Shown here: positions 26,331 to 38,091 of the stretch, one piece after another
How positions within the stretch are numbered: position 1 is the stretch's first letter
How the letters are laid out: each line of letters opens with the position of its first letter
Source: Deltaproteobacteria bacterium
GTDB taxonomy: Bacteria; Desulfobacterota; Dissulfuribacteria; Dissulfuribacterales; DYLC01
Length of the DNA stretch: 64,000 bases
NCBI GenBank assembly: GCA_028695735.1
Contig: JAQVIJ010000001.1
Span: 646,447-710,446 of the forward strand
Reading direction: 5' to 3'
The notes under the pieces: generated by a model
The model's database searches: none
What the model saw: only the letters and a program-made list of their open reading frames with translations
Told to the model about the DNA's origin: nothing
Translations under genes and position numbers: made by a program

Positions 26331-27059
26331 TTATGCAATGGGCAGTACGCCTTTTATCATGCGTGCCAGTAGGTTACGTCTTTCTCCAACAGATGCCTGC
26401 GGCATCTTTTGTGGAGCGCATTTGTTAAAAAGCAGCTCTATGTCCCTCTCTTTGCCGTAATAATAGACATTTGGGCCGATATTGACGGCAGCAGAGGTGA
26501 TGCCCTTGGCGCCCTTTTTAATATATTGGGCCACCTCTGAATTTGAGTCGTTCATATCGCCGAAGATGCGGGCCTTGGCCAGGCAGGTCTGAACACAGGC
26601 AGGCTCCAGGCCTTTTTCCAGCCGTTCTACACAGAAGGTGCACTTGTCTGCCTTTTCCAGTTTTTCATTTAGATATCGAGCGCCGTATGGGCATGCCTCT
26701 ACGCACATACCGCAGCCGATACAGTGATTTTTGTCTATGAGCACAGCACCGGTAAATGGATCCTTCCATGTGGCGGCCACCTCCTGAGTTACGGTCTTTC
26801 CTGTTTCCTTGTCCGTAAAGGTCATGGAGCGCACGTCTGCAGGGCAGACCTTGACGCAGGCAGGGTCTTTACAGTGATTGCACAGACCTGGATAGTAGGT
26901 GTAGGAAAGGCCTTTGGAGGTCTGGGCAGGCCCCAGCCTCTTGACCCAGTTTCTTTGATTGGGTACGGGCACATCCCATTCAGCCCTGCATGCTATGGCG
27001 CAGGCATGGCATCCCACACAGCGGTTCAGATCGATGATCATTGCATATTGTTTGGGCAT
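26331..27059 (-). CDS. Four-cluster Fe-S subunit of a molybdopterin oxidoreductase (PsrB/PhsB-type)
   Basis: A 242-aa electron-transfer subunit with four [4Fe-4S] cysteine groups: CVGCHACAIAC, CNHCKDPACVKVCP, CIGCGMCVEACP, and CTFC with a later CVQTC. It has no Tat signal of its own, as usual when it travels with the Tat-tagged catalytic subunit. It is 17 bases downstream of that subunit, with AAAGGAG before the ATG. It differs from the exported ferredoxin at 10661, which has its own Tat signal. It should connect the molybdenum enzyme to a membrane quinol oxidase subunit, but no NrfD/PsrC-type gene is adjacent; two terminators follow directly. Confidence 0.9.
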   Translation of the reverse strand: MPKQYAMIIDLNRCVGCHACAIACRAEWDVPVPNQRNWVKRLGPAQTSKGLSYTYYPGLCNHCKDPACVKVCPADVRSMTFTDKETGKTVTQEVAATWKDPFTGAVLIDKNHCIGCGMCVEACPYGARYLNEKLEKADKCTFCVERLEKGLEPACVQTCLAKARIFGDMNDSNSEVAQYIKKGAKGITSAAVNIGPNVYYYGKERDIELLFNKCAPQKMPQASVGERRNLLARMIKGVLPIA

Positions 27060-27076
27060 AGTCGTCTCCTTTCAGT

Positions 27077-29323
27077 TTATATTGGGAAAGATATGGTCTT
27101 TCCATCTTTTACGAGCCTTACAAAATTGGCACGAATGCCGTGTGTCCCTGTCTGTGGATCTACACAGTTGGCACTACATAAGGACTGGTCATCCATGCCC
27201 TTGTCTTTTGCTATCTCCAGCATGGGGTTTCGCATGCCATAGCCATGGGGAAGAAAGACCGCATCAGTTTTGATACCAGGTGTAACCAGCACTACGGTAT
27301 CGGTGGCAGAGGTGAGTCCATCCTGGTTGACCAGCTTTACCCGGTCTCCGTCCTTGATTCCCATTTTGGCTGCCATCTTGTCGTTTATCCACAGGGCGTT
27401 TTCAGGCATTTCATTGTGAAGCCAGAGATTGTTTTGTGTGCGGGTAAAGGAGTGTACAGGGACGCGGCCAAAGAGCAGATGGGCATAGCCTGCGGGTCTT
27501 TTGGGCGGTGGCGTATAGGCAGGTGCGCCTGCAAAGCCCTTTTCTGCCAGCTCCTTGGAAAAGAGTTCGATCTTGCCGGATGGAGTCTCAAATTCCAGCT
27601 CATTTCCGTTTCTATATGCCTTTTTAGTGGATTCCTCTATGTGTATGCCATTTTCAGCCCTAAGCTTTTCTAGGGAGAGCCCGGCCGGCTCCAGTATTTT
27701 GTTGACATATTCCTCTTGGTTTTGAACTGGAATATGTCTTTCAAACCCCATGCGTTTGGCTATTTCATTGGTGATAAAGATGCTGTCTTTTACATCATGT
27801 AATGGGGTTATGATGGGCATGCGGGCTGCAATATATTGCTTATCAGGCCCATTCGTGCTCAGTTTGCCTCCCTTTTTGATCACATCATAGCGTTCAAGGT
27901 AAGTGGGTTCAGGAAGCAGAATGTCTGCATACATGGTGACATCAGTGGGCATCACATCAACACATAAGACGAAGTCCTGTTTTTTCAGGAATTCAATGGT
28001 CATCGCCTGATTTGGTATGGTTTGAACGATATTTTGCCCCCAGATGACCGTGGCCTTTATGGGATATGGTTTTCCTGTGATGCCGGCGTTTCGAATGGCA
28101 TCAGTGGGTGTTCCAGGGGGATGAAAAGGCCATTTCTCTGCCATATTGATCTTCTCATCGGGTTCGGCGGCGTCTTTCCACTTTACAGAGCCTGTCTTGG
28201 GTGAGATGGGGTTTGTAAAGCCACCAGGCACCTTATATGCCCCAAGCAGTGCGGTCAGGCATGCCAGCGCCCGAATGCGCTGAAAGTCATTGCCATACCA
28301 TGAGCTGAATCTGCCAGGATGAATGGCAACATTTGGTGCATTTTGAGCCAATAACTCCGCTATCTTTATGATTTGAGCTTCAGGTACATCGCATTCCTTG
28401 GCGGCCTTTTTTGCCGGCCACAGGCTGCACGCCTTTTTGAACTCCTCAAAGCCTGTGCAGTTGGCCTGCACAAAGGCCTTGTCGTAGAGGCCCTTGGTGA
28501 TGAGGTGATTCATGATGGCAAGCAGCAGGGCCGTATCTGTGCCTGGTCGAATGGGAATCCAGATGTCGGCCTTGGATGCAGCAGCCGAAAATCTGGGGTC
28601 TATTACGATGAGTTTTGCACCATTTTCCAATCCCTTGAGATAGCTCATGGTATGAGAGACATGGATGTTTTCGCCCAAATGTGAGCCGGTCAGGAATATG
28701 ACCTTGGCATTGGCCATATCCACATTTTCGTCACAGGTGTGCCCGTATGTGGTGAGATAGGCCTGATCCCTTACTCCACGGCACTGAAAGAACGAGGCCT
28801 CACTGATGTTGGGAGTGCCTACAACTGTTTCAAAGAAGTCCATGGGGTATTTGGCTGAGGCACCGTGAGGAAACATGGAGATGCCTTGAGGGCCATATTT
28901 GTCCAAAACTGCCTTGAGGCGTTTGCCACACTCGTCCAGCGCCTCTTCCCATGATATGCGTTGCCACTTGGGGTTGCCTCGTTCGCCTATATTTTTCATT
29001 GGGTATTTGAGGCGGTTTGCGTCATATGCCAGCATGATGCCGGCATTTCCCCGGGCACAGATGGCCTTGCCGTTGTCTATGCTCTTGGGATTGCCTTCCA
29101 ATTTTACAAGCCTGCCGTTTCTCACCTTTCCAACCAGCTGGCAGCGCCAGAAGCACATCTCGCACACACCGCCTGCTATGCTCTGAGTGTCTTCAAAGCT
29201 GCCTTTGGGTACGAAGTCCGGCTTTTTTTCTTCCGCATAAACCTTTATCGCCCTTGAAAGCGGTATCGATGCTGCGGCCAATGCGGCTGCCTGCAGAAAA
29301 TGTCTGCGTGTGATTTCAGCCAT
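27077..29323 (-). CDS. Molybdopterin oxidoreductase catalytic subunit (PsrA/PhsA/TtrA-type)
   Basis: A 748-aa DMSO-reductase-family enzyme with Tat signal TRRHFLQ at residues 5-11, so it acts in the periplasm. The N-terminal [4Fe-4S] motif is Cys54/57/61/89 (CEMCFWRC ... ICARG). Cys181 in FFQCRG sits at the position expected for the Mo/W-coordinating residue and is encoded by TGC. The C-terminal molybdopterin dinucleotide domain (from about 625) has VHSFTRTQNNLWLHNEMPENALWIN. The family reduces polysulfide, thiosulfate, tetrathionate or arsenate; motifs alone do not decide which. Operon order is torD-like, this gene, Fe-S subunit. A strong AAAGGAGG site precedes the start. Confidence 0.9.
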   Translation of the reverse strand: MAEITRRHFLQAAALAAASIPLSRAIKVYAEEKKPDFVPKGSFEDTQSIAGGVCEMCFWRCQLVGKVRNGRLVKLEGNPKSIDNGKAICARGNAGIMLAYDANRLKYPMKNIGERGNPKWQRISWEEALDECGKRLKAVLDKYGPQGISMFPHGASAKYPMDFFETVVGTPNISEASFFQCRGVRDQAYLTTYGHTCDENVDMANAKVIFLTGSHLGENIHVSHTMSYLKGLENGAKLIVIDPRFSAAASKADIWIPIRPGTDTALLLAIMNHLITKGLYDKAFVQANCTGFEEFKKACSLWPAKKAAKECDVPEAQIIKIAELLAQNAPNVAIHPGRFSSWYGNDFQRIRALACLTALLGAYKVPGGFTNPISPKTGSVKWKDAAEPDEKINMAEKWPFHPPGTPTDAIRNAGITGKPYPIKATVIWGQNIVQTIPNQAMTIEFLKKQDFVLCVDVMPTDVTMYADILLPEPTYLERYDVIKKGGKLSTNGPDKQYIAARMPIITPLHDVKDSIFITNEIAKRMGFERHIPVQNQEEYVNKILEPAGLSLEKLRAENGIHIEESTKKAYRNGNELEFETPSGKIELFSKELAEKGFAGAPAYTPPPKRPAGYAHLLFGRVPVHSFTRTQNNLWLHNEMPENALWINDKMAAKMGIKDGDRVKLVNQDGLTSATDTVVLVTPGIKTDAVFLPHGYGMRNPMLEIAKDKGMDDQSLCSANCVDPQTGTHGIRANFVRLVKDGKTISFPI

Positions 29324-29325
29324 TT

Positions 29326-29889
29326 CTAAGAATCCTCCTTTTGAATGAGTATTTGAATCAGTTTAACTAAAGTGGGATAAAATATGTGTTCGGCATGGGT
29401 TTCGACATACTCTTGAAATATGGGGAACCATGTGCGCATGTGTTGCAACATGAGTCCTTCAGTCTGCATATCACCCTGTTCGGCCACATGGGCCAGAAAG
29501 GCCAGCTCCCAGCAAAGGGCATCTGGTATTTCATTTGGCGGCAAATTAAATCCATGGGTTTTATAGAGGCGCATGATTTCTTCTGTGGACTCCCCCCACA
29601 GCCGGTGTTCTAAATAGAAAGATGCATAGGGTGGGGCGGCTGCCGGCCTTTTGCCATCCTGAATAAATAAACGGGTATATTCCAGCTGAAGCCGTAACAG
29701 GGCATCGGGTGTGCTTGCGAATGCCTGAATACCGTGGGCATTTTGTGTGAGCCTAAGGGATTCCAGGAGGCTGATCAAGAAATGGACCTCATTGGAGTAA
29801 AGAAAGTTTTTGTTGGGATAATCAACGAGATATGATAGCCAGTTATATATTATAGATGCCCCAAATGTATTTGCATTATGTTGTTGCAT
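29326..29889 (-). CDS. TorD/DmsD-family chaperone for the molybdoenzyme
   Basis: A 187-aa, mostly helical cytoplasmic protein. The motif PAAAPPYASFYLE (about residues 84-96) matches the E/D-x-x-PPY-x-S-x-Y core of TorD-like chaperones, which bind the Tat signal and help insert the Mo cofactor. It ends 2 bases before the catalytic gene begins, fitting that role. Start at 29889 is chosen over the longer reading from 29982, which would add a hydrophobic leader unlike the family; the ribosome site is weak either way. The DNA around the 5' end is AT-rich. Confidence 0.82.
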   Translation of the reverse strand: MQQHNANTFGASIIYNWLSYLVDYPNKNFLYSNEVHFLISLLESLRLTQNAHGIQAFASTPDALLRLQLEYTRLFIQDGKRPAAAPPYASFYLEHRLWGESTEEIMRLYKTHGFNLPPNEIPDALCWELAFLAHVAEQGDMQTEGLMLQHMRTWFPIFQEYVETHAEHIFYPTLVKLIQILIQKEDS

Positions 29890-30022
29890 TGTACCTGATT
29901 TAAGAAATTGAGCGAATGTTAAATAACTCCATAAGAAAATAATAGCATGGATTGCTTTAACATTCCAATAGATTATTCCCATTGATTTTATTTTATTGAT
30001 AGGTTTTATCTATGCGTAAAAA

Positions 30023-31999
30023 TCATAGATTTTTATTCTGTGGAATGTTGGATGAATTTGATGCAGTAGAATTATGTTTGACATGAGGATATAGAATCCG
30101 TTTCATTTTATTCTTATCAAATAGTGTAAATGATACTGAATCAAGATAGTCAAGTATATTTATTATGCGTCTGCCAATCGGAAATATATTTTTTGCATCT
30201 TCTATTGTCAATTCTTTATTGGTTTTAAAGAAATCCAATAATTTGTCTTTTATAAATTGCAAGGCTGCAGGCGTTAAGTATTCCTCTCGCTCTCCAGTCT
30301 TGCTTTTATATATTTTTATGAGTTTGTTTTGCCTTGTTAATATCTTGAATGCATCTCTCACTTCCTTTTCAGGCAAAGTTAGGGTTTGCAAGATGCCATG
30401 CAGTGTGATGGGCATAATCCAGCTGCTTTCCGCCGTCTTTAAAATAAGCTGCATGAGATGTTCGATCTGTCTGTTGAATCTGGGACGAAATCCCTTTTGC
30501 AGAATCAGTCCCGCCTTGCACTCCAACCGGCCTGTTGATGTCAGGCCGTTGATGGCTGCATCAAACAGAACAAGGGGCAGATTTGGGAATTGGGTGCGCA
30601 GGGTTTCGCGGGCCATGCCTTCTTGTTCAGAATGTATTGCATGGTGTCTCAATACTGTTTCATAAATGGAATTTTGAATGGCTTCAAAGGCGTCTGAAAG
30701 AAAATAACCGTCTCCTACGGGCCTGATGGTTTTGGCCGAGCATAATAGGCTTAAGCGTTCTTTGATGATGCGTAAGGGATAGCCGGATAGGATTGCAATC
30801 TTTTCCGGAGTCAGGATGGAAAGGGGATTAAAGCGCATGAGTGCAGGAATGATCTCGGACAAATCGCCGGTTGCAAGGGTTTGAAGAAGGGCCCCGTGTT
30901 CGTTCCAGCGTTTCCGCCATTTTCTGTCAGAGATTTCCAGCACGCGGCCGCCGCCCAACAGGTCATTTCTGTGCAGTGAGATGAGTACAAAAGGTGAATT
31001 CGGTGGAATCGCAATGGCTGTTTCCAGGCGTAATTGCGCCAGGCCACGCTCATTTGCATTCAGGCCCTCTGAATTCATCAGAACCACTTTGCAATTGGTG
31101 TGCAGGGTGCCTATAAAGAGCCGCGCCGACATATAGGATTTTATGGACGGCATTCCATTGGGGACATATAACTCTACATTTAAAAAACGTCCCTTCGGCA
31201 ATGCGCCGGGGGTGGACACTATACATCCTGTGGTTACATCCTTTGTGCGCAGGGTGGCCAGATTCAGCCCCGTTCTCATGCCTGCATGTACCTGCAATTG
31301 GGGTCTTCCGCCGGCCTGTATGGCCCTTACTCGATCCATTATGCCAACAGGTTGAATTTCGATGATGTCTTCTTGGTTCAGCGAACCGGAACTTACAGAG
31401 CCTGTCACTACCAGACCGTGTCCCTCTTTGTGCAGTATATGGTCGATGGCCAGTACAAAAGGCTGTTCCAAATCAGGCGCTGGCAGGGTGTCGAATAGAT
31501 GCCCGATCGCACTCAGCAGCCCTTCACGGCCTTGCATGGTAATTGATGAGGTCTGAATAATTGGCGCAGCGGTGTATGGCGTGGCCTTGAGCAGATCGGC
31601 CGTCTCTTCCAGGGCCAAAGCCAGCAGATCTTTTTCCATGCGATCGACCTTCGTGATTACACAGATGAGCCGCGGTACCCCCAGAAGCTGTAAGATGGCG
31701 AGGTGCTCGCGTGTCTGCGGCATTACTCCTTCATCCGCAGCTATGACCAATATGGCTGCATCTATGCCCCAAATGCCCCTGATGGCGTTGTGCAGAAATT
31801 CCTTATGCCCTGGCAGATCAATAAAGAAGGCGGTCTTGTTGTCAGGGAATCGCAGGACCGCATGGCCTGATGTGATGGTGATGCCTCGGCGCCGTTCCTC
31901 TAAGTGTCGATTGAGTTCAACGCCTGTGAGCATCTTTACCAGACTGGTCTTGCCGTGTTTTACATGGCCTGCCACGGCTATGATGATGGAATTACGCAT
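30023..31999 (-). CDS. selB: Selenocysteine-specific elongation factor SelB
   Basis: A 658-aa GTPase. G1 is GHVKHGKT near residue 12, G3 is DLPGHKEF, and G4 is TKVD, the EF-Tu-type set. The N-terminal 340 residues form GTPase and beta-barrel domains; the remaining 300 form the repeated winged-helix region that binds the SECIS mRNA hairpin, and the total length fits SelB. The ATG at 31999 has AAGGA at good distance; an ATG at 32008 is too close to it. A tRNASec-shaped tRNA lies just upstream on the same strand, in the place of selC. No selA or selD is visible in the window. Confidence 0.93.
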   Translation of the reverse strand: MRNSIIIAVAGHVKHGKTSLVKMLTGVELNRHLEERRRGITITSGHAVLRFPDNKTAFFIDLPGHKEFLHNAIRGIWGIDAAILVIAADEGVMPQTREHLAILQLLGVPRLICVITKVDRMEKDLLALALEETADLLKATPYTAAPIIQTSSITMQGREGLLSAIGHLFDTLPAPDLEQPFVLAIDHILHKEGHGLVVTGSVSSGSLNQEDIIEIQPVGIMDRVRAIQAGGRPQLQVHAGMRTGLNLATLRTKDVTTGCIVSTPGALPKGRFLNVELYVPNGMPSIKSYMSARLFIGTLHTNCKVVLMNSEGLNANERGLAQLRLETAIAIPPNSPFVLISLHRNDLLGGGRVLEISDRKWRKRWNEHGALLQTLATGDLSEIIPALMRFNPLSILTPEKIAILSGYPLRIIKERLSLLCSAKTIRPVGDGYFLSDAFEAIQNSIYETVLRHHAIHSEQEGMARETLRTQFPNLPLVLFDAAINGLTSTGRLECKAGLILQKGFRPRFNRQIEHLMQLILKTAESSWIMPITLHGILQTLTLPEKEVRDAFKILTRQNKLIKIYKSKTGEREEYLTPAALQFIKDKLLDFFKTNKELTIEDAKNIFPIGRRIINILDYLDSVSFTLFDKNKMKRILYPHVKHNSTASNSSNIPQNKNL

Positions 32000-32031
32000 G
32001 GTTCGCATTCCTTAGAGTTTCTCCAATGAAA

Positions 32032-32121
32032 AGGGGGCAAGGGGAATCGAACCTCCCCCCTGTTTTTTAGACAGGGCCGACGGGTTTGCAGCCCGTGGGA
32101 TGCGCCAGCACCTTTGCCCCC
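32032..32121 (-). tRNA. Atypical tRNA with a tRNASec-like body, GCA (Cys) anticodon and U73
   Basis: Minus-strand tRNA of 90 nt, 5' end at 32121. Acceptor stem 8 bp (GGGGGCAA with TTGCCCCC). D arm GGTGC-TGGC-GCATC with only a 4-base loop. Anticodon arm ACGGG-CTGCAAA-CCCGT, anticodon GCA, which reads UGC/UGU. Long variable arm with stem CCCTGT/ACAGGG. T loop TTCGATT; the T stem is GGAGG against CCCC, which pairs as 4 bp with one bulged A. The acceptor branch is therefore 8/4 with a bulge, 12 bp, rather than the 13 bp (8/5) of bacterial tRNASec. The discriminator is U, the cysteine identity base; tRNASec normally has G. CCA is not encoded. It lies 33 bases upstream of selB, the usual selC position. 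Confidence 0.88.
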
Positions 32122-32420: not shown

Positions 32421-33467
32421 ATGAAAAACTATCTCAAGACATGGATTTTGCCCATTGGTTGTGGAATAGCGGCCGCTGTTTTGGTGTCGTGTTCCACGAG
32501 CAATCGTTTGTCAGAGGTGCACTTTCCGGCATCTATGAAGGATGCCAAGGCAGTTGGAAGCAAGGCCTGTGCCGAATGTCATTCGGATGTGTGTAAGGAC
32601 TTTGGCCACAACATTCATAGCCGAATAGCCAAGTTTGAAATTGCAGTTAATGGTGTTACGCGTGAGGGCTGTGAGGCATGTCATGGACCTGGCAGCAAGC
32701 ATGTGGAGTCAGGCGGGGATACCTCAAGCATATTAAATCCCGCAAAGCTTGAGGGCATGGAGTCCGCTGCCCTGTGCATACAGTGTCATGCAAGTGGAGA
32801 GACATTGGAGTGGCATTCATCTGTGCATTCCATGCAGGATATGGCCTGTGTGAGTTGCCATACAGTGCATCATGAGAAGGATGACCTGACCAATCGTGAA
32901 ATGGTTTGGGGCTATAAACGCAAATACACCAAAGATGCAGGCCTAAAAAAGCCAGAGCCAGAGTTATGTTTTGATTGCCACAATTCCGTTCGTGTTCAAA
33001 CCAATTATCCCAATCATCATCCCATCAAGGAAGGGAAGCTTGTCTGCTCTGACTGTCATAATCCCCATGGAACACAGACTCGGCCCATGCTGCGCGTAGA
33101 GGACAGAAAAAGTGAACTATGTCTAAGTTGTCACATGGAATACACAGGGCCTTATGCCTTTGAGCATGCACCTGTAATGGAGGACTGTAGCATCTGCCAC
33201 AATCCCCATGGCGCTGTCTCTGACAACCTTTTGAAGCAGCAAGAGCCCTTCTTGTGTCTGCAGTGTCATCAATTGCACTTTCATACCTCATTTAGGCCCA
33301 ACACCGATGCACTGCCAAGCACTTATAAGTTTAGAACTGGCGTACCAAGTGATCATTCCATGCAGACTGCCATGATGACTCGTTGCACACAATGCCATTC
33401 CATGGTGCATGGCTCTGACTTGCCGTCTCTCTATACTCCAGGCGGTGGTAGCAGACTAACTCGATAA
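32421..33467 (+). CDS. MtrA/DmsE-type decaheme c-type cytochrome, probable lipoprotein
   Basis: A 348-aa cytochrome with ten CXXCH motifs: CAECH, CEACH, CIQCH, CVSCH, CFDCH, CSDCH, CLSCH, CSICH, CLQCH, CTQCH. Number, spacing and repeats such as SDCHNPHG and SICHNPHG match the MtrA/DmsE/PioA family, whose members form a heme wire inside an outer-membrane barrel. The N-terminus has a lipobox (VLVSC, Cys at about residue 24), so it may be lipid-anchored, unlike soluble MtrA. GGAGGGA precedes the ATG. The barrel partner follows after 15 bases. No outer-surface OmcA/MtrC-type cytochrome lies beside them. Confidence 0.93.
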   Translation: MKNYLKTWILPIGCGIAAAVLVSCSTSNRLSEVHFPASMKDAKAVGSKACAECHSDVCKDFGHNIHSRIAKFEIAVNGVTREGCEACHGPGSKHVESGGDTSSILNPAKLEGMESAALCIQCHASGETLEWHSSVHSMQDMACVSCHTVHHEKDDLTNREMVWGYKRKYTKDAGLKKPEPELCFDCHNSVRVQTNYPNHHPIKEGKLVCSDCHNPHGTQTRPMLRVEDRKSELCLSCHMEYTGPYAFEHAPVMEDCSICHNPHGAVSDNLLKQQEPFLCLQCHQLHFHTSFRPNTDALPSTYKFRTGVPSDHSMQTAMMTRCTQCHSMVHGSDLPSLYTPGGGSRLTR

Positions 33468-33482
33468 AAAGGAGGGGATAAG

Positions 33483-35912
33483 ATGAATAATTTTAAGACT
33501 TATACCATTATTTCCGCATTGCTATTGCTTTCAACTGCCGTAGGCGCAGATGACTCCACCACCAATGAGTTCAGCGGCAAGGTGGAGGCAGGTTATCATG
33601 CTGTGGGCAGAACAGATAGCCTTGAAAAAACTGCTGAGTTTGACAGCGCCCGCTCCAGTGCAACTGGCGGTGTGGATCTGTCCTTATCCAATGAGAATAT
33701 GGCATTTCGCGGCAGGGCCGATTATACGGATTCTGATGAATATCAGACAGCTGGCTCTGTGGATGTGAGTCGTATCTTCAAGATGGAGTTCAATCATGAC
33801 AGCTTTCTGCATAGGACTCGTCATGATAGCTTTCATGAAAAAGACCCCAAGGCCTTATTGACAGGTACCATCAACCCTGGCACTCCAGATGCAACCTTTG
33901 CTACGGCGGAACACAATGGTGCCCCTGGCTATGAAAACATGTATTCTGGTGTAACCGCTGCCAATCCAGTCCCTGTAAAAAAAGAGGATGGTAGTTTTGT
34001 TACAGAAGGGTTTCAGACAGCCACATTTAATGACCTGGACATGGGTCGCAATTATTCCATAAGGCGTATGGAGCAAGAATGGAAGGCCAGCTTGCAGTTG
34101 CCAGCATTTCCCAATTTGGTACCTGAGATTCAATTAAAACGCCAGCAGAAGGATGGCTGGAAACAGCATTCCTTAAGCGTAGGCCAGTGCACGCCTTGCC
34201 ATGCAGTGGCAGTGGGCAAAAAGATTGATTACACCACCGATGATCTCAAATTTGGTGCCACATATAGGCATAGCAATGTAAGCTTTAGCTACTTTCATGG
34301 CATAACCAAATTTGATTCAGGCAAGGATCTGTTTGCTCACAATGGCTTTGTGGACAACGACTATTGGTTCGATGCTGTACCAGGCACAGGGGCGACACCA
34401 GATGCCAGGCGTAGTAGAGAGCTCTATGACAATCAGCATGCTGCAATTGGCGATATGCCTGATACAAATAAACATACTGATACATTTAAGCTGAGAATAG
34501 ACGCACCAAATGCCACTACTATCTACTCAAGTGCAGTATTTTCTCGCACAGAAAATGATAGTAGAGACAATGAATACAAGACAAATACTTATTATTTGAG
34601 CTTAAATAATCGTATGATTCCTAAGTTAAATTTAAAGGCATTTGTTAAGTATTATACGCTGGATAATGATGATATAGCTATAAACTTAGCAAATTATGCC
34701 AATGATAAAACTGTATTATTCACAGCTGATCCAATCAATGGTAGCCAGCCAGTTACATTTTGGGATTATGAGCGTCTTTCCACACTTAGTAGAAATGTAA
34801 CTGAAACAGGTCTAAACTTTGGTTATGGATTGAGTCATGGTTATCATCTGACCGGAGGTTACACTTATAAGATAGAAGACCGTGATAACCGTTTCTTTAA
34901 GGACTTTTATAGTCCAAAACTCATAGATCATGTATATCTTGAGGATGAAAAGACGCAATATCACATTTTGGATCTGGGCTTAAGTGGAAGACCTATAAAG
35001 ACTGTGAATGCCCGTATAGATTACAGATTCCAGCATGTGGAAGACCCATTTATGTATTATCATGGTCTGGGTTACACTACTACATGGATAGACCTCTATC
35101 CCAATGACGGTGTGGATATGGCATCTCAAAATACGCCATTTTATCAGATCTTTAGAAGCATAGATGGCCCAGCTCCACAATATACGGCGGGAAGGACTGC
35201 AAGTGGCTCCAATGTGGCTGAGAATCAACATCGTATCAAGGCCACTGCCACCTGGATGGCCAATGATTGGCTATCTTTTCAGGTCAATGGTATGTATCTG
35301 AACGAGAAGAACGATGTGGAAAGTGACTGGAGCAATAAGACCTGGAATGGCGGTATAAGTTCTCACATCTTGATGAGCAAAAAGCTCTCCTTTAGTTTGG
35401 GTTATGATTACCAAAAGAGCAGTTATGAGACCAAATATAGCACTCCAACCTATATTGGCTGCTTTAGCGAGAGCATGTCAGGCCAGATCGCATCCCGTTA
35501 TGCCGATGTAGATAATGACATTAAGGTGCACATGCTTTATCTCTCCAGCACTTATAAGCCCATACAAAAACTCAAGCTCTATGGTGACATCATCGCCACT
35601 TGGAGTAAGGCGAATTTGAGTGTGCCAGACTTCGGCCCAAATCAGGTCTATGTCTATTTCCCCAATACTGGTTTCCCATATAGCTATTCCATTATGCGCA
35701 ACTATTTGGATTATACAGGTTCGGATTTATTGGCGGAATTGGATTATAGAACTGTGGATCTGGTCTTGGGCGGTGAGATGGAGCTCTATCGTGGAGTGGC
35801 ATTAAATGTAAATGGTGGGTATAGAAAGTTAAGTGACAAAAAGGCCTATTTGGGCTCTGACCTGGACGGAGAGATGTACATGATCAACACTGCATTGGTT
35901 TATCGATTTTAA
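33483..35912 (+). CDS. MtrB/PioB-family outer-membrane beta-barrel protein with an internal heme motif
   Basis: An 809-aa barrel with signal peptide to about residue 21 (TAVGA-DDS), many amphipathic strands rich in Tyr and Asp, and a terminal aromatic residue (ALVYRF). Size and position after a decaheme cytochrome match the MtrB/PioB sheath that holds MtrA across the outer membrane. A CXXCH motif lies at residues 236-240 (QCTPCHAV), which could bind a covalent heme; MtrB of Shewanella instead has an N-terminal CXXC. Part of the middle (about 34540-35000) is more AT-rich. An intrinsic terminator follows 76 bases after the stop. Confidence 0.9.
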   Translation: MNNFKTYTIISALLLLSTAVGADDSTTNEFSGKVEAGYHAVGRTDSLEKTAEFDSARSSATGGVDLSLSNENMAFRGRADYTDSDEYQTAGSVDVSRIFKMEFNHDSFLHRTRHDSFHEKDPKALLTGTINPGTPDATFATAEHNGAPGYENMYSGVTAANPVPVKKEDGSFVTEGFQTATFNDLDMGRNYSIRRMEQEWKASLQLPAFPNLVPEIQLKRQQKDGWKQHSLSVGQCTPCHAVAVGKKIDYTTDDLKFGATYRHSNVSFSYFHGITKFDSGKDLFAHNGFVDNDYWFDAVPGTGATPDARRSRELYDNQHAAIGDMPDTNKHTDTFKLRIDAPNATTIYSSAVFSRTENDSRDNEYKTNTYYLSLNNRMIPKLNLKAFVKYYTLDNDDIAINLANYANDKTVLFTADPINGSQPVTFWDYERLSTLSRNVTETGLNFGYGLSHGYHLTGGYTYKIEDRDNRFFKDFYSPKLIDHVYLEDEKTQYHILDLGLSGRPIKTVNARIDYRFQHVEDPFMYYHGLGYTTTWIDLYPNDGVDMASQNTPFYQIFRSIDGPAPQYTAGRTASGSNVAENQHRIKATATWMANDWLSFQVNGMYLNEKNDVESDWSNKTWNGGISSHILMSKKLSFSLGYDYQKSSYETKYSTPTYIGCFSESMSGQIASRYADVDNDIKVHMLYLSSTYKPIQKLKLYGDIIATWSKANLSVPDFGPNQVYVYFPNTGFPYSYSIMRNYLDYTGSDLLAELDYRTVDLVLGGEMELYRGVALNVNGGYRKLSDKKAYLGSDLDGEMYMINTALVYRF

Positions 35913-36073: not shown

Positions 36074-36820
36074 TCAGGTCATAGATGCCAGCAGGGCTGC
36101 GCCCAGGGCGCCTGTAAACTCCGGTTGTTCCGGCACCAAAACGGGCATGTGCAACATGGCCTTCAGCTCCTGTACCAATGCCTTATTTCTGGCCACGCCT
36201 CCACAAAAGCAGAGGGGTGGATTTATGGAGAGGCGGTTTAGAAGGCTTGCCGCCCGTTGTGCTATGGATTTAAAGATGGCCCGTGCCACATCCGCTGGAT
36301 TTGCGCCTTGCGCCTTTAATGAGATCACCTCGGTCTCGGCAAAGACCGTGCAGGTGCTGTTTATGCTGAAGTCATTGGAGCCCCGCAGGGCCAGTGCATT
36401 CAGTTCAATGATGGAACAACCCAAAGAGGTGGCCATGGCCTCCAGAAAGCGGCCTGTGCCCGCAGCGCAGCGATCGTTCATCACAAAGCTATGCACCCGG
36501 CCGTTCGGGTTTAAGCTGATGGCCTTGGTGTCTTGACCGCCTATATCCAAAATGGTGCGCACCTCGGCAAACAGGTTGTGTACGCCCTTGGCATGCGCCT
36601 TGATTTCCGTAACATGTTCAAAACCCATGTGCTGAGCAAGAAGATGCCTTCCATAGCCCGTGACCAAGGTTTTGTGAGGCTGAATTTCCTCGAGCAGTGT
36701 CTGCACCTCCTGCACATAATCAAAGCCCGTGGCCACCTCCTTTTTAAGGATGCACTCGCCTTTTTGTAGGACAACCAGCTTGATGGCCCTGGAGCCCACA
36801 TCCAAGCCTGCTATTTTCAT
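36074..36820 (-). CDS. BadF/BadG-type ATPase, activase of a 2-hydroxyacyl-CoA dehydratase/double-cubane protein
   Basis: A 248-aa ASKHA-fold ATPase. The N-terminal phosphate loop AGLDVGSRAIK, the DIGGQDTKAI motif, and the cluster-binding cysteines in NDRCAAGTGRF and STCTVFAETE identify an archerase: a homodimer with one bridging [4Fe-4S] cluster that uses ATP to inject low-potential electrons into its partner. Its ATG overlaps the stop of the partner gene (ATGA). Normal length for the family. Confidence 0.92.
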   Translation of the reverse strand: MKIAGLDVGSRAIKLVVLQKGECILKKEVATGFDYVQEVQTLLEEIQPHKTLVTGYGRHLLAQHMGFEHVTEIKAHAKGVHNLFAEVRTILDIGGQDTKAISLNPNGRVHSFVMNDRCAAGTGRFLEAMATSLGCSIIELNALALRGSNDFSINSTCTVFAETEVISLKAQGANPADVARAIFKSIAQRAASLLNRLSINPPLCFCGGVARNKALVQELKAMLHMPVLVPEQPEFTGALGAALLASMT

Positions 36821-38091
36821 GGCGAAATGAGTTCCTTGAAGGCCTCGATGCGCGTCTTTAAGGCCTCCACATCCTGCATGGAGTAGTCTGTTTCCAATCT
36901 CAAGAGTGGAATGCCTTTTGATGCCAGCATGTCCTCCACCCGCTTGGATTCTATGGTATAGGGCTGACAGAATTGAATGGCATAGTGAATGACTCCGTTG
37001 GCCTTGAGGGTCTCAGCCATTTCCACGATGTGATTTAGGCGCTCCGTATTGGGCGTAAAGGTGGCGCAGTCGATTTGGAAGTAGCGTTCGGTTATGGCCT
37101 TCAACATCTCATTTACATCCTTACAGCCCTCTGCCACGGTATTTCTTGTGTTGCGCACGCCCACGCAGCTCTCTTCGCCGACGATCACCGCCTCTGTCCC
37201 TTCTACTATGGCGGGTATCTTCCAGTTGGGAATGGCCATGGGGCAGCCTGACATCAGAATGCGCACTGTATCGCCTCTGGCCACGCCTACATTGTTTTTG
37301 ATGCGCTCCTCCAGTTCGTCACAGAGTTCATTTACGGCATTTGTGAAGCGTACGGGGTCGTCGTAAAAGGCGATTTGATTGATGAGCAGGCTGTCCAGGC
37401 CGCTTATGGGTGGAATTGGGGCTGCGCGCAGCTCGTTGAGTCGGTTTAATGCCCGTCGTTTGTTATTGACTATTTGAATGGTCTTTTGCAGGCGCTCGGC
37501 TGTGATCTTTGTGCCGGTTAAGGCCTCCAGGCGCTCCTTGAAGCGCATGACCTCGGAGTGAAATAGGGACTTGGCATTTTCGCTCTTGGTCTGCGGCACC
37601 TCCATCACATGTACAGGCTGAAACTCGTTAAAGAGCTCATAGGCCTTTTTCTTGCCGTCGCAGGTGGTCTCTCCCACCACTAAATCGCAGGAATTGGCAT
37701 AGGGGCAGAGCCTGGCAAGCTTGAAGCCAAAAAAGGACTTGATGAGCCCGCAGGTATTCTTGGGCAGGTATTGCTCCGCCAATTCAAAGCCGGCCTCGGC
37801 ACCGGCACAGAGCCCGATACAGACGCCGTCTGCCGCAAGTATCAGCTCCTCTGGCACAAAGACACAAAATGTGCCGATGACCTTTTTCCCCTGAGCCTTT
37901 GCCTCTTGCAGCTCCTTTATGCGCAGGCCATGCACCTCGCTTATGACAAAATCGAAGTATTTCATGGCATTGGGCCTGTTCTTTTGAGAGGCATAGATGG
38001 AGGAGTAAAAACCACTCAAGGCCTTCAGAAGACCCTCATGGGCATCTAAATTTAAGCCTAAATTTCGCCACATTTCCTCATAGGTTTGCAT
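36817..38091 (-). CDS. 2-hydroxyacyl-CoA dehydratase D-type / double-cubane cluster protein
   Basis: A 424-aa protein of the HgdB/FldC/YjiM superfamily. The N-terminal Cys-containing segment IGTFCVFVPEELI (about residues 71-83), GLCAGAEAGF, and CPYANSCDLVVGETTCDGK are typical. The protein is a single polypeptide with its own activase and no second dehydratase subunit, CoA transferase or acyl-CoA dehydrogenase nearby. That arrangement fits the double-cubane cluster proteins ([8Fe-9S]) that reduce small molecules with ATP-driven electrons, rather than an amino-acid fermentation dehydratase. The natural substrate is unknown. Promoter is probably in the 170 bases shared with the divergent transporter operon. 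Confidence 0.82.
   Translation of the reverse strand: MQTYEEMWRNLGLNLDAHEGLLKALSGFYSSIYASQKNRPNAMKYFDFVISEVHGLRIKELQEAKAQGKKVIGTFCVFVPEELILAADGVCIGLCAGAEAGFELAEQYLPKNTCGLIKSFFGFKLARLCPYANSCDLVVGETTCDGKKKAYELFNEFQPVHVMEVPQTKSENAKSLFHSEVMRFKERLEALTGTKITAERLQKTIQIVNNKRRALNRLNELRAAPIPPISGLDSLLINQIAFYDDPVRFTNAVNELCDELEERIKNNVGVARGDTVRILMSGCPMAIPNWKIPAIVEGTEAVIVGEESCVGVRNTRNTVAEGCKDVNEMLKAITERYFQIDCATFTPNTERLNHIVEMAETLKANGVIHYAIQFCQPYTIESKRVEDMLASKGIPLLRLETDYSMQDVEALKTRIEAFKELISP

Follow-up and report, generated by a model that had tools for sequence, protein, structure and literature searches.

Gene content of the locus and identity of the tRNA

In the window (the whole 64,000-nt stretch of DNA analyzed here), the sole tRNA called by ARAGORN is a 90-nt tRNA-Cys(gca) on the minus strand (32032–32121), referred to below as selC*, which is followed on the same strand by selB*, a gene for a SelB paralogue of 661 aa (30023–32008). 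Genes for an Fe-S subunit, a PhsA-like molybdopterin oxidoreductase, and a TorD-like chaperone lie downstream of selB* (26331–29982, minus strand; PRK14993, PRK15488, and PRK04976, all below cut-off). Divergent from the tRNA are genes for a decahaem cytochrome of the GSU2203/DmsE family (32421–33467, plus strand; NF041028, 422 bits) and an outer-membrane beta-barrel of the GSU2204 family (33483–35912, plus strand; NF041027, 354.5 bits, cut-off 350), the latter an 809-aa open frame without UGA; beyond these, on the minus strand, are an acyl-CoA dehydratase-type activase (36074–36820; TIGR00241, 227 bits) and its partner, a double-cubane-cluster reductase (36817–38091; NF040772, 475 bits).

The original prediction described a tRNA-Sec-shaped molecule with a GCA anticodon, U73, an 8-bp acceptor stem, and a bulged 4-bp T stem, and ARAGORN, Rfam, and direct reading all agree with it. 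The Rfam tRNA-Sec covariance model, proposed as a check, accepted the fold over its full length (57.2 bits, gathering 47, E 1.9e-10). By direct reading, the acceptor stem (GGGGGCAA/TTGCCCCC, 8 bp) begins with G1:C72, the D stem closes a 4-nt loop, the long variable arm has the stem CCCTGT/ACAGGG, and the T stem (GG-A-GG/CCCC) consists of 4 bp plus a bulged A and closes the loop CTGCAAA; U73 is followed by TTTT where CCA would stand, and CCA is not encoded. The GCA anticodon and U73 are Cys identity elements, and GCA, U73, and an 8/4 branch with a bulge take the place of the canonical tRNA-Sec features (UCA, G73, and an 8/5 branch). The predicted distance of 33 bases to selB needs correction: the tRNA 3′ end is separated from the first selB* ATG (32008) by 23 nt. 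With initiation at the second ATG (31999), which is what the gene start of the relative in G031 suggests, the spacer grows to 32 nt.

These features (8-bp acceptor stem, 4-bp T stem, bulged A, and U73 with GCA) make this a genuine tRNA of the published selC* tRNA-Cys class, in keeping with the earlier mention of bulged 8/4 minor tRNA-Cys species in Deltaproteobacteria. The class and its SelB* partner (Mukai et al. 2017) are described in a later review (PMC7609411), which lists an 8/4 branch, a bulged A at 51a, U73, GCA, a second selB downstream, and a canonical selC elsewhere, all of which are shared here. Unlike some published loci, this one has no cysS*, which is expected only in Desulfobacterales with A1:U72; because the first pair here is G1:C72, ordinary CysRS should suffice. 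The present order is not named among the selC* lineages in that review. At another locus, a short CysRS gene (436 aa; L113:5194–6504, plus strand) stands directly 3′ of selC*(UCA)–selB* and is followed by selD with UGA, a layout equal to the published cysS* arrangement.

Conservation and distribution among relatives

The fold was evaluated with 30 homologous tRNAs (29 distinct), using 28 drawn pairs, 500 shuffles, and slid controls. Across the 29 distinct relatives, 98.8% of cells were paired and two-sided changes occurred at 13 of the 28 pairs, giving a covariation score of 0.301, compared with 0.133 for the shuffled alignments, none of which (0/500) reached the real score, and 0.036–0.099 for the slid controls, in which pairing fell to 43–62%. 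The fold is far above chance expectation. Since the four T-stem pairs and the bulged A hardly vary among relatives, support for the T stem comes from conservation and not from covariation. It is scarcely credible that the gene is a degenerate or unexpressed copy, a possibility raised earlier as grounds for rejection; such copies exist, for example a second selC* in G220 (L118:4146–4235, minus strand) that is partly degenerate, its bulge altered and some acceptor pairs broken, but here 98.8% of cells pair across the 29 distinct relatives, the bulged A does not change, and linkage to a same-strand selB-like gene is kept at 27 loci.

Within the order, a close SelB* occurs in 4 of 46 genomes, this one counted, and in all four a GCA tRNA lies just upstream. 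A covariance model built from four tRNAs and run on 395 genomes of the phylum found matches in 40; the majority of loci carry GCA with U73, and twelve carry UCA, two of them (in G373 and G301) with A73. The UCA tRNAs at L116:9362–9450 and L117:9594–9682, with discriminator A73 and an adjoining SelB* each, have an identity that is not clearly Cys or Ser. A tight family from one genus (L119:9446–9535, L120:9749–9838, L122:2607–2696, L123:155–244, and L125:9630–9719) combines GCA and U73 with a regular 8/5 rather than 8/4 branch, with obg/rplU nearby in most, and G060, the one genome tested from it, has only one SelB. Likewise, only one SelB was recovered from the genomes (G295 and G026) that hold the selC* tRNAs at L124:9732–9820 and L097:1797–1886.

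Phylogeny and sequence features of SelB*

The selB* product belongs to the SelB family (TIGR00475, 273.2 bits, cut-off 242.25) and shares 30% identity with the other SelB of the same genome. In a phylogeny of 26 SelB* and 21 canonical SelBs from the sampled genomes plus E. coli, SelB* formed a single clade (support 0.995) apart from canonical SelB, with E. coli on the canonical side; mean identity was 38% among SelB*, 51% among canonical SelBs, and 33% between the groups. The UCA members grouped into a single subclade that also includes one GCA member and branches from within the GCA members; on the topology of this tree, UCA is therefore most simply derived and GCA looks ancestral.

The Lys of the SRK (S/G-R-K) motif in WH4, an RNA-binding winged helix, is present in all 21 canonical SelBs, as well as in the E. 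coli and Moorella structures, and is replaced in 26/26 SelB*, with GRR in the protein encoded here. Recognition of SECIS is the task of the SelB winged-helix domains (PMC8124441), and therefore mRNA binding by SelB* probably differs from that of canonical SelB; SelB* may not bind a canonical SECIS. A profile search of the genome contigs with the SelB* C-terminal alignment returned nothing beyond G025 itself. Overall, the pair resembles canonical bacterial tRNA-Sec and SelB in the 8-bp acceptor stem, long variable arm, and SelB fold, and differs from them in the anticodon, the discriminator, the 4-bp bulged T stem, and the lost SRK Lys.

All 21 canonical SelBs have Arg at position 181 (E. coli numbering), a residue that lines the Sec pocket, and 12 of the 26 SelB* have His, Gln, or Gly there, with His in this one. 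Loss of Arg181 could point to an inability to bind Sec, but because Aquifex SelB has Ser at this position, the change is suggestive only. This SelB* retains the residues that align with His61, Asp180, and Arg236 of E. coli SelB. Together with the GCA anticodon and the SelB partner, they would suit the earlier proposal that Sec is carried to UGC/UGU, as by the tRNA-Sec(GCA) of Aeromonas salmonicida, which also bears GCA on a Sec-type tRNA and delivers Sec to UGC. That route, however, needs a tRNA of the SerRS/SelA type with G73, and the combination of U73 and GCA, the 8/4 rather than 8/5 branch, and His for Arg181 make it very unlikely for the present molecule, which has Cys identity.

Ordinary cysteine and selenocysteine machinery

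The genome (2.22 Mb, 97% complete) contains a true selC (C2:594552–594645), which has the UCA anticodon, G73, and CCA in the gene itself and whose presence elsewhere had been raised as a possibility, along with selA, a second selB of canonical type, and an ordinary tRNA-Cys(GCA) at C8:132115; selC* and SelB* are therefore unneeded for ordinary Cys or Sec decoding. Two fdhA genes have an in-frame TGA at the Sec site with a predicted hairpin after it, and one of these hairpins has a GGTCT loop resembling that of E. coli fdhF. Coexistence with selA (31/32) was considered as a telling link to the Sec trait and discarded, because selA is present in 355/395 (90%) of the phylum sample and coexistence proves little.

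Neighboring genes and the search for mRNA targets

Selenoprotein families include FdhA, MvhD, HdrA, an Fe-S oxidoreductase-like protein, and the GSU2204 family (PMC13188914), and the neighbors of selC*/selB* are often Cys forms of such families, or selenium genes. An FdhA whose Sec site is occupied by Cys (TGC) adjoins the pair in L022, L023, and L097; homologues of the double-cubane reductase lie near selC* in 9 genomes, and MvhD, HdrA, and HdrC/GlpC-like proteins are also found beside the pair (raw counts). The activase is in an operon with selC*–selB* at L021, and the selenium genes comprise SelD with UGA, YedE, YedF, and a Se/S carrier protein. Between mvhD and selB* at L108:8402–8956 (minus strand) is a conserved protein of ~180 aa with no Pfam or NCBIfam match, which has homologues in L094, L101, L102, L105, and L110 (six genomes in total).

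It is unlikely that the pair is a retained cassette that marks or controls the operon of a selenium-independent isoform with little or no Cys insertion. Its place beside Cys isoforms and selenium genes would suit such a role, as would the example of M. maripaludis, in which Cys isoforms are switched on when selenium is depleted (PMC11097638), but every tRNA helix is kept, and the GTPase and tRNA-binding parts of SelB* are intact and conserved across many families. Nothing was found in favor of the proposed regulator or suppressor of UGC/UGU.

The neighbors of selC*/selB* yielded neither a SECIS-like element nor a convincing UGA target. In-frame UGAs aligned with Cys in homologues were mostly antisense-frame noise, and a cleaner scan of the neighbors of UCA loci yielded only SelD, whose Sec site is known, and, in G260, a TonB receptor. 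At L107:9164–11278 (plus strand), 0.8 kb from a selC*(UCA), a gene for a TonB receptor contains an in-frame TGA flanked on either side by receptor-like sequence; it may be a target, a pseudogene, or the product of a sequencing error. The Cys FdhA genes share no hairpin after the Cys codon, unlike the Sec homologue of this genome, and therefore do not look SECIS-dependent. Neither synonymous-site conservation nor RNAalifold windows revealed a clear element in the double-cubane reductase (DCCP), MvhD, the protein labeled X, or the activase: DCCP had z 2.6 after Cys374 with no consistent hairpin, one MvhD window had z −2.9, and the other low-z windows were not behind a conserved Cys codon.

These results bear on a tentative and rather doubtful alternative, in which SelB* is the carrier of a second, Cys-only system that recognizes an mRNA element other than SECIS and inserts Cys at specific codons of dedicated Cys-form genes (for example Cys FdhA, MvhD, HdrA, and the GSU2204 protein), at UGC/UGU with the original GCA tRNAs and at UGA with the derived UCA tRNAs. 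SelB* being a single old clade with WH4 altered in every member would fit, as would the repeated occurrence of Cys members of selenoprotein families next to it; however, ordinary tRNA-Cys and EF-Tu would already read UGC/UGU, the FdhA, DCCP, MvhD, protein X, and activase genes yielded no clear element of this kind, and apart from SelD and the one TonB gene the neighbors of UCA loci are without UGA.

Proposed function and implications

The most likely explanation, to which we give a probability of about 60%, is that this selC* tRNA-Cys and its dedicated SelB paralogue insert Cys at Sec UGA codons. According to PMC11415595, a GCA member from Desulfotomaculum reads Sec UGA as Cys, with SelB rather than EF-Tu as its carrier, and charging with Cys is also published for relatives. 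The original prediction lacked the report of UGA decoding; its suggestion that SelB delivers Cys is in line with the published work. As cited there, the recoding tRNA-Cys of D. nigrificans (Vargas-Rodriguez et al. 2018) is likewise tRNA-Sec-like with GCA and SelB delivery; the present tRNA differs in having a SelB* of its own, in which WH4 is altered. Selenium scarcity is the proposed reason for such Cys-for-Sec recoding tRNAs (PMC9437257).

For this organism, we infer the action of SelB*, its mRNAs, and the response to selenium as follows. CysRS would charge the tRNA by way of GCA and U73, the 8-bp acceptor stem would exclude EF-Tu and suit SelB*, and SelB* would bring Cys-tRNA to the ribosome, where GCA could mispair at the third base of UGA and place Cys at a Sec codon, as reported for the relative; when selenium is short, the cell would still make selenoenzymes, for example the two formate dehydrogenases whose genes contain UGA. 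The 2018 paper reportedly named the class tRNA-ReC and proposed programmed codon–anticodon mispairing. A nested subclade with UCA anticodons is what one would expect of a system that serves to read UGA. Against UGA recoding, normal pairing would direct most members to UGC/UGU, the neighboring genes carry Cys codons and not UGA, and the SRK Lys is lost from WH4 throughout SelB*.

The analysis adds the altered WH4, the inference that GCA preceded UCA, and the repeated presence of Cys isoforms among the neighbors, none of which was found in the reviews consulted. From the shared loss of the WH4 Lys one would expect the mRNA element to be altered, and the two fdhA genes with UGA offer ready reporters of Cys versus Sec insertion. 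The published class of recoding tRNAs now extends to an order that has a representative in culture, Dissulfurimicrobium hydrothermale.
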